Positions 870 through 5,274 of a DNA stretch of 42,965 nt are shown here, piece by piece. A model generated the notes under the pieces. The model was not told where the DNA came from, ran no database searches, and saw only the letters and a list, made by a program, of their open reading frames with translations. A program made the translations under genes and the position numbers. Position 1 is the first letter of the stretch; the number at the start of each line of letters is the position of its first letter. The stretch is taken from assembly GCA_902515625.1 (NCBI GenBank), contig CABXVD010000006.1, positions 1-42,965 of the forward strand. Direction: 5' to 3'. The stretch is from an uncultured Pelagibacteraceae bacterium. GTDB lineage: Bacteria > Pseudomonadota > Alphaproteobacteria > Pelagibacterales > Pelagibacteraceae.

Positions 870-885
870 ATAGCCTATAGGCTAT
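870..885 (+). terminator. Possible weak intrinsic terminator (perfect 16-nt palindrome)
   Basis: atagcctataggctat is self-complementary (6-bp stem, 4-nt loop), followed by ttatttataat. Confidence 0.35.
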
Positions 886-938
886 TTATTTATAATATAA
901 TTTTAAATCCACAGAAAAATAATATAAAAACAAGGGAT

Positions 939-1013
939 GCCTGGGTGGTGTAACGGTTAGCACGAAAGTTTGTGGAACTTTAAGTTTGAGTTCGATTCTC
1001 AGCCCGGGTACCA
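939..1013 (+). tRNA. tRNA-His (GTG), CCA encoded, no encoded G-1
   Basis: Acceptor gcctggg/cccgggt (G1:U72 wobble), D stem gtgt/gcac, anticodon stem aaagt/acttt with loop ttGTGga, T stem ttgag/ctcag with loop ttcgatt, A73 + CCA; base at -1 is T. Confidence 0.93.
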
Positions 1014-1017
1014 AAAA

Positions 1018-2412
1018 ATGGATAAAGAAAATAAATTAGTACCTGGATTACCTCCAGGTTTTGAAGATCGTTGGGAAATTAAACTTCTTCTCAAAAAGAA
1101 GCTATTAAAAGCTATAGAGAATAATTTTATTAAGTTTGGAGCAGAACCTCTTGAAACACCTTCGTTCGAAATTAGTGAAAATATTGGATCTTTTTTGGCA
1201 GAAGATGAGGCCAATCCTATGTCTGATGTATTTTCATTCCAAGATGGAGAAAAAAGTATTACGCTTCGATATGATTTATCAAGCCCACTTGCACGATTTG
1301 TAGCTCAAAATAATCAAGAACTTCCATCAATTTTCAAAAGGTATCAAATTCAAAATGTATTTCGTAACGAAAAAGCTGGAAATGGAAGGTATAGAGAATT
1401 TATGCAAGCAGACTTTGATATTGTTGGGAATGTTGATCCAGCACAGGCAAATGCAGAACTTTGTAATCTAATAACAAGCACATTATTAGATTGTGGTTTG
1501 AACAAAGATCAATTTACAATCAATGTAAGTAATAGAAAAATCGTGCAAGGTTTAATTAATGAATTAAAAATATCTGAAGAAAAACAGGTCAAAGTTATTA
1601 GAGCTATAGATAAATTAGATAAGCCAGGATTTGGATTTAAGGGAGTTGAAGACTTATTAAAGAAAGAGAGAAAAGATCAAAGTGGAGCAATTACTAAAGG
1701 GGCTGATTTAACTGATCAACAAGCAGCACAAATATTAAATTTTCTAAAAATAAAAGATTTAAAAGAATTAAAACAAACCTTAAAAAATCAATTATCTCAA
1801 GAAGGAATAAGTGAATTAGAAAATGTATTCGAGATACTTGATTATGGATTAAATATAAATCAAGTTAAAACAAACTTTACGATTGTGAGAGGATTAGCTT
1901 ACTATTCGGACTTTATTGTTGAAACAAACTTAAACTTCAAAGTCACAAATAATAAAGGTAAGGAAGTTGATATCGGCAGCATATGTTCAGGTGGAGCCTA
2001 TGCAAAACTCATATCAAGATTTAGAGGGGTTGATATTCCAGGTACTGGAATAAGTTTTGGAGTTGATAGATTGTTATTCGCTTTAATGCAATTAGATCAG
2101 ACTAATGTAGAGGATCAAAAACCAGTTTTAGTATGTGTAATGGATAAAAAATATTTAAAAAATTATTATGAGATGGTTGATCAACTAAGAAATAATAGTA
2201 TTAATGCTGAAATTTTTTTAGACAGTAAAAAAAACCTAGGTAAACAATTAACTTTTGCAAATAAACGAGATTTATCAGTTGCGATTATTTGTGGTGAAGA
2301 TGAATTTAAAGATAAAACTGTTACTATAAAAAATCTAAAAGGTATCAAGGGCGAAAATAATAAAACAATCCCAAAAGAAGATTTGATCAATGAAGTCAAA
2401 AAACTTATCTGA
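1018..2412 (+). CDS. hisS: Histidine--tRNA ligase
   Basis: Class II aaRS motifs (TLRYDLSSPLARFVA, RYQIQNVFRNEKAGNGRYREFMQADFDIVG, GTGISFGVDRL). The track's 970 start lies inside tRNA-His; ATG at 1018 (MDKENKLVPGLPPGFED) is preferred. Confidence 0.95.
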   Translation: MDKENKLVPGLPPGFEDRWEIKLLLKKKLLKAIENNFIKFGAEPLETPSFEISENIGSFLAEDEANPMSDVFSFQDGEKSITLRYDLSSPLARFVAQNNQELPSIFKRYQIQNVFRNEKAGNGRYREFMQADFDIVGNVDPAQANAELCNLITSTLLDCGLNKDQFTINVSNRKIVQGLINELKISEEKQVKVIRAIDKLDKPGFGFKGVEDLLKKERKDQSGAITKGADLTDQQAAQILNFLKIKDLKELKQTLKNQLSQEGISELENVFEILDYGLNINQVKTNFTIVRGLAYYSDFIVETNLNFKVTNNKGKEVDIGSICSGGAYAKLISRFRGVDIPGTGISFGVDRLLFALMQLDQTNVEDQKPVLVCVMDKKYLKNYYEMVDQLRNNSINAEIFLDSKKNLGKQLTFANKRDLSVAIICGEDEFKDKTVTIKNLKGIKGENNKTIPKEDLINEVKKLI

Positions 2413-3442
2413 AAAAATTCTTAGGTCAGTAAAATCTAAGGGTTTTAAGTATATTGAGCTACCATCTGTAATAGAGGCAAATCATATTGTTCAAAGATCA
2501 GGAGAGAACTTTAGGAAATTCATGTTTTCCTTTACAGATATAAATGGCAAGGAATTATGCTTAAGACCTGACTTAACAATTGCCTCTTGTTTAAGATATT
2601 TAGAGGAAAAATTAAAAGGTAAAGAGAAAATTTTCTATAGTGGTCAGGCTTACAGGAAAGTACAAAATAAAAAAGACTCAATAATAAGAAATCAGGTTGG
2701 CTTTGAGATCATTGGATCTAAAAATGAAAAGAATGACGATAAAGAAATCATAAATACTTCTCTAGAGTCTCTACAAAGTATAAAATATACATCAGGAACA
2801 TTAACTATTGGGAATGTTGAAATCTTTAATTTATTAATTTCAAAACTGAATATCCCAAAGCGTTGGAAGTTAAGATTGATAAGGCATTTTTGGAGAGAGA
2901 AATATTTTAATGATCTTTTAAAAAGATTAGAAACTAACTCAGATGTAGATCCAACTATTGTTGAGATTGATAAAAAAAGATATTTTAAAATGTTAAAAGA
3001 AGATTTATCTAAATTTATTGCAGGAAGATCAATTAATGAAATATTAAAAAGATTTGATAATAAAATTAGAGACCCAAGAGGGGCTAGTAAGGGAAAAAAC
3101 ATATCACAGATCATAAAAAAATTTCTTAAAATAAAATGCCCAATAAATAAAGCAGCAGCTGAATTAAATAAATTTTTTAAAAAAAATAAGATTAATCTGG
3201 TGGTTGATCAAAAATATTTCCCGACTTCGAAAAATAAAATTTCAAAACTTAATATAGTTTTCTCAGCTTCTTTTGGAAGACAACTAGAATACTACACAGG
3301 TATGGTTTTTAAAATTGACATTAAATCAAAGTCAAAAAATAGAAATATAATTAATGGAGGCAGATATGACAAACTAATTTCTGATCTTGGCTCTGAAAAA
3401 CAAATACCAGCAGTTGGAGCTGCTTTAAACTTAAGTAATTAA
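2390..3442 (+). CDS. hisZ: ATP phosphoribosyltransferase regulatory subunit (HisRS paralogue)
   Basis: LRPDLTIASCLRYLEEKLKGKEKIFYSGQAYRKVQ and GGRYDKLISDLG; lies between hisS and hisG. Confidence 0.88.
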   Translation: MKSKNLSEKILRSVKSKGFKYIELPSVIEANHIVQRSGENFRKFMFSFTDINGKELCLRPDLTIASCLRYLEEKLKGKEKIFYSGQAYRKVQNKKDSIIRNQVGFEIIGSKNEKNDDKEIINTSLESLQSIKYTSGTLTIGNVEIFNLLISKLNIPKRWKLRLIRHFWREKYFNDLLKRLETNSDVDPTIVEIDKKRYFKMLKEDLSKFIAGRSINEILKRFDNKIRDPRGASKGKNISQIIKKFLKIKCPINKAAAELNKFFKKNKINLVVDQKYFPTSKNKISKLNIVFSASFGRQLEYYTGMVFKIDIKSKSKNRNIINGGRYDKLISDLGSEKQIPAVGAALNLSN

Positions 3443-4134
3443 TGACAAAAGATATTATTAGTATTGGAATTCCAAGCAAAGGTAGACTCAGAAAAGATAT
3501 TTTAAAGATCTTTAAAAATAATAAGTTAGATCTTATTTCTGAACATGGTGAAAGAGATTTGTTGGGCTCTATTAAACAATTAAAAAATATTAAAGTTTTG
3601 TATCTTCATGCAAGAGAAATTGTTGAAAGACTTGGTGATGGCTCATTAGATTTAGGTTTTTCAGGTTTTGATTTACTAAAAGAAAGTGAAATTAATATTC
3701 AAAATAAAATTTATGTTACTAAAAAATATAATTTTGGAAAAGCAACATTAGTTGTGGCAATTCCAGATCCCTGGATAGATGTTCAAACGGTTGCAGATTT
3801 AGAGGAAATTGCATTTGAGTTTAAAGATAAAAAGAAAAAAAGATTAAGAGTTGCCACGAAATATCCTAATTTAACTCGAGAGTTCTTATTTTCAAAAGGA
3901 GTAACACAATTCAAATTAGTAGGTAGTTTGGGGGCAACGGAGGCCTACCCTTTCACTGGATCAAGTGAGATTATCACAGATATAACTTCAACAGGTGAGA
4001 CTTTAAAAGCTAATAATCTTCGTATTCTAAAAGATGGAGAAATATTAAAATCCGAGGCTTGTATGATGATATCAAAATCTTCTTTTAAAAATAAAAAAGT
4101 GAAAAAATTGGCTAACTTGCTTTCTAAGAATTAG
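3442..4134 (+). CDS. hisG: ATP phosphoribosyltransferase, short form
   Basis: IGIPSKGRLRKDIL, DLGFSGFDLL, RVATKYPNLTREFLFSKGV, EAYPFTGSSEIITDITSTGETLKANNLRIL. Confidence 0.96.
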   Translation: MTKDIISIGIPSKGRLRKDILKIFKNNKLDLISEHGERDLLGSIKQLKNIKVLYLHAREIVERLGDGSLDLGFSGFDLLKESEINIQNKIYVTKKYNFGKATLVVAIPDPWIDVQTVADLEEIAFEFKDKKKKRLRVATKYPNLTREFLFSKGVTQFKLVGSLGATEAYPFTGSSEIITDITSTGETLKANNLRILKDGEILKSEACMMISKSSFKNKKVKKLANLLSKN

Positions 4135-4176: not shown

Positions 4177-5274
4177 GTGGATACGATTCTATTAATTGTT
4201 TTGGTTTTATTGCTTAGTGCAACTTTAGGTATTTTGTATCTAAATATAAGAACTAAGCCAAAAGATGAGAGCGAGAATAAAGAAGCGGAGGAAATAGCTA
4301 ATTTAAAGAACGAAATAGTTACTTTAAAAGATACTTTAAATAATACTATTAATACTTCCCTTGGTACAATGTCGACCTCATTTAACAACCTATCAACAGG
4401 GGTTACGAAAGATATGACTGAGGCCTTAACTAAAGTAGATGAGAAAGTTGGAAACTTTAACCAACAAGTGCAATTATTAAATCAAAGCCAAGAGGGGATT
4501 ACTAAAATTTTAGCTGGAGTTAAAAAATATGGAACGCTAGCTGAATTTAGTTTAGATGCTTTAATTAAAGATTTGTTGCCAGCTTCTCAATTCATGACGA
4601 ATGTAAAAATGAAAGATGAAACAAGTGAGAATGTTGAATTTGCAATTAAACTTCAAGGAGATGTTTTGGTCCCAGTTGATAGTCACTTTCCTGTTGAAAA
4701 ATTTAAAGCAATAACCGATGGTTATGACGCAGATGATAAAAGAGCTATTGCAGATGCAAGAGCTAAATTAGCAACTGCTTTTAAAGCTAAAGCTAAGAGT
4801 GTTAATGAAAAATACATTGTGCCACCTAAAACAACAGATTTTGCAATTGTTTATGCACCGACTGAAAGTTTATATAAAGAATTAACTGAATTCCAAGATC
4901 CAACTACTAAAGAATTATTAACTAAAGAATTGATGAAAAAATATAAAGTTATAATTTGTGGACCTAATACTTTATCTGCTTATTTACAATCTCTTCACAT
5001 GGGTTTTCAGTCATTGAAAGTTCAAAAAGGTGCAACAGAAATATACAACCATCTAAAAACAATCAGCTCAAGATTCGGTAAGCACTTCGATAATATTATT
5101 TCACTAAGAAAAAAATTAGAAGAAGCAATGATTGTAGTAGATAAGTTTGGGACAGATGCCAGATCAATCACAAGAACGCTTGAAAGCATTAAAGATCCTG
5201 AACAACTTGAAAAAGCTGTTCAAACTGAAAATGTAGAAAAATTTGTTGATCGTCCAAAACAAGCAAATAATTAA
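4177..5274 (+). CDS. rmuC: RmuC family DNA recombination protein
   Basis: N-terminal TM, coiled coil, then GDVLVPVDSHFPVEKFKAI and DFAIVYAPTESLYKELTEF, characteristic of RmuC. GTG start. Confidence 0.9.
   Translation: MDTILLIVLVLLLSATLGILYLNIRTKPKDESENKEAEEIANLKNEIVTLKDTLNNTINTSLGTMSTSFNNLSTGVTKDMTEALTKVDEKVGNFNQQVQLLNQSQEGITKILAGVKKYGTLAEFSLDALIKDLLPASQFMTNVKMKDETSENVEFAIKLQGDVLVPVDSHFPVEKFKAITDGYDADDKRAIADARAKLATAFKAKAKSVNEKYIVPPKTTDFAIVYAPTESLYKELTEFQDPTTKELLTKELMKKYKVIICGPNTLSAYLQSLHMGFQSLKVQKGATEIYNHLKTISSRFGKHFDNIISLRKKLEEAMIVVDKFGTDARSITRTLESIKDPEQLEKAVQTENVEKFVDRPKQANN

Follow-up and report, generated by a model that had tools for sequence, protein, structure and literature searches.

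Bacteria of the SAR11 group are the most abundant bacteria of the ocean, and co-transfer of the pair of tRNA-His and histidyl-tRNA synthetase (HisRS) into this group has reportedly been discussed by Wang and colleagues in 2007. The combination of tRNA and protein-coding genes on one transcript has been recognized in Escherichia coli, where thrU-tyrU-glyT-thrT-tufB forms a dicistronic tRNA-mRNA unit with a leader and a ribosome-binding site after the tRNA, and in animal mitochondria mRNA 5' ends are made by tRNA excision. Equally, the thrS operator of E. coli exemplifies the autoregulation of a synthetase via a tRNA-like element in its mRNA. The HisRS of yeast represses translation of its own mRNA by binding to an anticodon mimic therein, and rising tRNA-His relieves this repression (PMC6542539). 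Leaderless mRNAs, of which 375 have been described in Caulobacter, are common and well translated in this organism (PMC4117421). Furthermore, two studies report A73 in the absence of an encoded G-1 as a tRNA-His trait of most SAR11 (PMC3937112; PMC4284800). An earlier description of the tRNA-His-hisS layout was not found under either SAR11 leaderless mRNA or bacterial tRNA punctuation, in a search outside which most of the subscription literature lay; prior notice is possible. Here, such a layout is analysed in the window, a stretch of 42,965 nucleotides from the uncultured Pelagibacteraceae assembly GCA_902515625.1, which is 66 percent complete.

Gene order, hisS start and probable transcription unit

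In the window, infA (117-332), the tRNA-Phe gene (339-413) and csp (496-708) precede a forward-strand array that consists of the tRNA-His gene with GTG anticodon and encoded CCA (939-1013; ARAGORN and sequence), hisS for a HisRS of 464 amino acids (1018-2412), hisZ for the regulatory subunit of ATP phosphoribosyltransferase (2390-3442; NF008953 above cut-off) and hisG for ATP phosphoribosyltransferase itself (3442-4134; TIGR00070). The hisS open reading frame belongs to TIGR00442 with 340.7 bits at a cut-off of 286.75, and hisS overlaps hisZ by 23 nt and hisZ overlaps hisG by 1 nt. The junction reads ...GGGTACCA, then AAAA (1014-1017, forward strand), the presumed processing site, and then the hisS ATG at 1018, so that the distance of 4 nt between tRNA-His and start codon, from which the sequence-only reading had set out, is confirmed. 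ATG 1018 likewise stands as the best candidate for the hisS start, as the homologous HisRS N-terminus (M-x-K-E-x-K-L) begins exactly there in relatives and the window sequence holds no alternative in-frame ATG close by. Within hisS codons 9-15 (1041-1059), about 23 nt past the AUG, lies a hairpin (ACCTGGA-TTACC-TCCAGGT), which could be no more than a consequence of the conserved PGLPxG motif.

A terminator-like hairpin (ATAGCCTATAGGCTAT, then TTATTTATAA; 870-885, forward strand) is placed to close the csp transcript, the scan having returned two terminator-like sites in the region where 0.1 are expected in shuffles. Downstream of it, 13 nt 5' of the tRNA, a -10-like element TAATAT (920-925, forward strand) followed by AAAA stands out by conservation: of 185 loci, 173 have the motif TA[AG][TG]ATAAA upstream of the tRNA, 170 of them at a distance of 13-19 nt. 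A classical sigma-70 promoter scan returned nothing on the forward strand, and it is thus from conservation that TAATAT is taken as the probable promoter of tRNA-His-hisS-hisZ-hisG. Since the 4 nt between tRNA and hisS cannot accommodate a promoter, and since the part of the tRNA where a -10 could lie (about 1001-1008, TCAGCCCG) is G+C-rich, tRNA-His and hisS are almost certainly co-transcribed. The co-transcript that had been proposed from the letters of the window is, considering the csp hairpin, the conserved -10-like element and the short gap, the most economical reading.

Conservation of the junction and turnover of the tRNA-His gene

The hisS loci compared derive from 80 named SAR11 contigs, a search of 397 family genomes, regions taken directly and 30 further genomes, a set in which the same genome is possibly counted twice in places. 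Among the 189 readable SAR11 loci, all with ATG as the hisS start codon, the gap between CCA and ATG amounts to 3-7 nt in 180 (3 nt in two, 4 nt in 145, 5 nt in 29, 6 nt in three and 7 nt in one), with AAAA or a close variant as spacer, and to 23-47 nt in nine. A spacing of 0-10 nt conserved across SAR11, which had been named beforehand as a check, is therefore found, while none of 28 hisS loci in other alphaproteobacteria has a tRNA upstream. As the SAR11 loci share ancestry, the independent cases are fewer than 180 of 189 suggests; a better gauge is provided by the turnover of the tRNA, described below. Elsewhere in these loci the gaps are wider or less constant, with 73-137 nt from tRNA-Phe to csp and 219-518 nt from csp to tRNA-His. 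In the nine long-gap loci, reading of the sequences reveals mostly a small inverted repeat in the gap; at L134-L136, L138, L141, L142, L150 and L151, a gap of 23-29 nt holds a small hairpin, some with GGAG or AGGA.

The tRNA-His of the window has the GTG anticodon, a T at 938 and hence no encoded G-1, G1:U72 and A73, and is thus of the alphaproteobacterial type. Grouped at 85 percent identity, the tRNA-His genes upstream of hisS fall into 14 sequence types, throughout which the GTG anticodon and G1:U72 are invariant and A73 has a single exception. The HisRS tree of 86 loci requires at least 25 changes of type. The short gap is found in 11 of the 14 types; as it persists across tRNA types, the spacing belongs to the junction itself and is not the frozen accident of one sequence. 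As judged from the sequences, the tRNA-His gene has been replaced many times with the junction unchanged. The clearest pair is L007 versus L004, where the tRNAs are 80 percent identical, the flanking DNA 90 percent and the hisS start 97 percent. An exchange of tRNA-His together with hisS as a cassette was considered and rejected, as the type changes equally often on the HisZ tree, so that the tRNA follows hisS no more closely than hisZ. In genus g1, hisS and hisZ diverge unequally (L122: hisS 78%, hisZ 47%; L173: hisS 42%, hisZ 71%, infA 94%), which suggests frequent allelic exchange within the operon.

A phage origin of the odd tRNA type was equally rejected, a match being absent in phages and viral contigs; the IMG/VR contig L353 holds a chance match within a phage tRNA array. 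A T4-like phage contig (L322, with helicase, late sigma factor and an SbcD-like nuclease) carries on its minus strand, at 4300-4376, a tRNA-His that matches the SAR11 g4 type and is followed by AAAAATGGTAAAAG, the hisS start, and then by phage genes. This tRNA was apparently captured from a host junction, and tRNA-His replacement may have such a vehicle.

The most extreme tRNA-His, at L147 (G174), possesses a D-loop AAAATTA without G, a T-loop AGAGTTA and G73 instead of A73, and lies 47 nt before hisS; hisZ and hisG adjoining hisS were not found at this locus. With respect to the tRNA elbow, a D-loop with G18-G19 always occurs together with T55 in SAR11 tRNA-His and a D-loop without GG always with G55, as noted for the tRNA upstream of hisS at L072, L078, L115, L119, L120, L122, L125, L132, L141, L142, L152 and L164. 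In several lineages, the elbow pair G18:U55 thus seems to be replaced by A18:G55. The same elbow pattern occurs in a tRNA-Val (GAC) of L252, G55 is also present in tRNA-Phe (L245, and 339-413 of the window), and several of these tRNAs are missed by ARAGORN.

A second tRNA-His gene was not found in the SAR11 genomes checked. In the complete genome G003, a covariance search returned 33 tRNA hits, 31 of which have other anticodons by ARAGORN and one of which is the hisS-linked tRNA-His; the remaining hit (L256) is partial and not recognized as a tRNA. Of the 32 tRNAs of G009, each of which was read, one is tRNA-His, and a pattern search with ARAGORN revealed a single tRNA-His in G000, G026, G035, G043 and G078. 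The tRNA-His of the window is the sole one found in the examined part of its genome. The idea of a degenerate upstream tRNA as a dedicated mimic beside a normal tRNA-His was rejected, as the 33 hits of G003 include no tRNA-His besides the odd one, which itself reaches a tRNA score of 50.6 bits, and as no second tRNA-His was seen in other genomes among the pattern hits read.

Proposed release of the hisS message and competing explanations

From the observed gene order, spacing, conservation, single tRNA-His and RNase E gene we infer a functional promoter, a cut by a particular enzyme, and the leaderless state and leaderless translation of the hisS message. A promoter just 5' of tRNA-His would drive the unit tRNA-His-hisS-hisZ-hisG with the tRNA first, and the transcript would fold as a tRNA with the hisS AUG 4 nt past the acceptor stem. 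The tRNA 3' end would most likely be freed by an RNase E cut in the A-rich spacer and exonuclease trimming to CCA. A cut within AAAA would yield 5'-P-(A)0-4-AUG, so that the hisS mRNA would begin with a 5' monophosphate and about 0-4 leader nucleotides. This mRNA would be translated as a leaderless or near-leaderless message in an organism where Shine-Dalgarno sites are rarely used, and supply of HisRS and tRNA-His from one promoter would be a built-in consequence that needs no feedback regulation. That a near-leaderless hisS mRNA is released by 3' processing of tRNA-His, as one case of a general streamlined SAR11 layout, appears to us rather probable, if by no means certain.

An encoded CCA followed by an A-rich spacer is processed in E. 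coli by RNase E and then exonucleases, and this is the likely route by which tRNA-His would be cut from the hisS transcript. RNase E/G is found above cut-off in all nine SAR11 genomes searched and the RNase Z model in none of the nine. RNase Z was rejected as the cutting enzyme, as only weak partial metallo-beta-lactamase matches to its model occur, in eight of the nine genomes (none in G009), and the match L263 was read as PhnP-like; the existence of such weak matches nevertheless speaks against the model to some extent. Endonucleases that cut past an encoded CCA do so usually a few nucleotides downstream, as in P. acnes (PMC3848588); a cut 5 nt or more downstream of CCA would destroy the hisS start, which counts against the model. 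In fold predictions, the uncut RNA has tRNA helices beside the AUG and, with the tRNA removed, the first 27 nt are unpaired. A second predicted fold, a centroid in which the 3' strand of the tRNA pairs with hisS codons, was rejected, as the pairing hisS letters differ among relatives.

The lack of a ribosome-binding site outside the tRNA, pointed out by the sequence-only reading, holds true for hisS but is not special to it: Shine-Dalgarno matches of at least 4 precede 2 of 42 window genes by crude gene calls, so that its absence is normal for the organism. Of what would be expected of a leaderless message, hisS shows the lack of a Shine-Dalgarno site and, in all loci, an AUG start, whereas the position of this AUG at the mRNA 5' end is predicted. 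A near-leaderless hisS message after processing is likewise the most economical reading; as an obligatory state it does not stand, given the nine loci with 23-47 nt.

The arrangement is not confined to histidine. By an ORF-based count, the ATG of a long ORF follows within 12 nt at 8 of 33 tRNAs in G003 and at 11 of 32 in G009; pooled for these two complete genomes, 19 of 65 tRNAs have a long ORF within 12 nt and 15 of 65 within 7 nt. In G426, another alphaproteobacterium of 1.4 Mb, the figures are 8 and 2 of 35, a difference that is significant for up to 7 nt (15/65 versus 2/35; Fisher, p = 0.03) and not significant for up to 12 nt. Most of the downstream genes, among them a gene for trigger factor (recognized from the N-terminus) and one for a GIY-YIG-like protein, are unrelated to charging. 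No dedicated HisRS circuit is therefore needed to account for the spacing, for which streamlining suffices, and tight tRNA-gene spacing probably represents a general layout and not a histidine-specific switch; against the processing model, deletion bias alone may have created the spacing. What still sets hisS apart is that the tRNA is followed by the gene for its own synthetase, for which chance accounts with roughly 1 percent if, by our own rough estimate, about 10 such junctions are set against about 1300 genes. This coincidence, together with family-wide adjacency and the single tRNA-His of the genomes checked, speaks for a dedicated coupling, in which the rate of tRNA-His cutting sets HisRS output and balances synthetase and substrate. 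On the other hand, each transcript delivers one tRNA and one mRNA regardless of need and without inherent feedback, unrelated genes are served by the same layout and nine loci lack the short gap, so that such coupling is considered unlikely. The regulatory claim of the sequence-only reading, that HisRS output is tied to maturation of its own substrate, is possible but unsupported because of this one-to-one output and of the unrelated genes. A more far-reaching proposal, in which about a quarter of SAR11 tRNAs act as 5' processing signals of near-leaderless mRNAs and tRNA-His-hisS is self-balancing, the precursor hiding the AUG until it is cut, is tentative and, as a whole, doubtful.

Regulation might also proceed as with E. 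coli thrS or yeast HisRS, with HisRS binding the uncut tRNA-His and blocking the ribosome at the AUG until free tRNA-His relieves the block. The true ligand of HisRS adjoins the start codon, the yeast enzyme provides a precedent, and the GTG anticodon and G1:U72, and nearly always A73, are kept across the types; these identity elements would, however, be kept anyway in what is the cell's own tRNA-His, some loci have 20-40 nt between tRNA and AUG, and a long-lived precursor is required, which renders this explanation improbable. Translation of hisS on a co-transcript that is still uncut, in which the tRNA would form a folded 5' leader and processing would be unneeded or competing, would be compatible with SAR11 initiation without Shine-Dalgarno sites and with the A-rich unstructured sequence after the AUG. 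The initiating 30S subunit, however, occupies the mRNA from about -35 to +5 (PMC3121790) and would reach into the acceptor and T arms of the folded tRNA, and we regard such translation as unlikely. Finally, the spacing would be without consequence if the hisS promoter was located inside the tRNA gene or if hisS started elsewhere, for which the upstream frame, open into the tRNA back to a TTG at 970, could be invoked; with the G+C-rich stretch where the -10 would lie, and with an ATG and N-terminus that stay constant in relatives while the tRNA sequence varies widely, this can hardly be upheld.

If the cut of the favoured processing model takes place, excision of tRNAs would generate mRNA 5' ends in SAR11 as it does in animal mitochondria, yet in an abundant free-living bacterium, and genome streamlining could merge stable-RNA maturation with mRNA production. 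A promoter that supplies all tRNA-His must also heavily transcribe hisS-hisZ-hisG. A 5'-monophosphate near-leaderless end could, we infer, hold expression of these genes down via altered translation or decay, which would suggest that a promoter of tRNA strength could serve hisS-hisZ-hisG without an excess of enzyme in the cell.

Relation to known systems

With mitochondrial tRNA punctuation the SAR11 junction shares a tRNA that abuts the start codon, the predicted creation, by tRNA excision, of an mRNA that is leaderless or nearly so, and the use of the layout at many genes. SAR11 differs in being free-living with its own promoters and an encoded CCA, in placing only about a quarter of its tRNAs in this way and in an excision that is predicted. 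As in bacterial tRNA-mRNA units, tRNA and protein gene would share one transcript that is split by RNA processing, whereas in SAR11 4 nt without a ribosome-binding site separate the two and the protein encoded is the synthetase of that very tRNA. A shape recognized by the synthetase within its own message is common to synthetase autoregulation, of which the yeast case also concerns HisRS; in SAR11, however, the shape is a real tRNA rather than a mimic, and binding and repression would be hypothetical. A predicted AUG at or near the 5' end and initiation independent of Shine-Dalgarno sequences would connect hisS with the leaderless mRNAs of Caulobacter, which are described as having the transcription start as 5' end (PMC4117421), while the SAR11 end would derive from tRNA processing. 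Finally, the tRNA-His/HisRS pair without G-1 has been described with the A73 and the missing encoded G-1 found here and with SAR11 named, and the accessible parts of these descriptions mention neither gene adjacency nor spacing (PMC3937112; PMC4284800).
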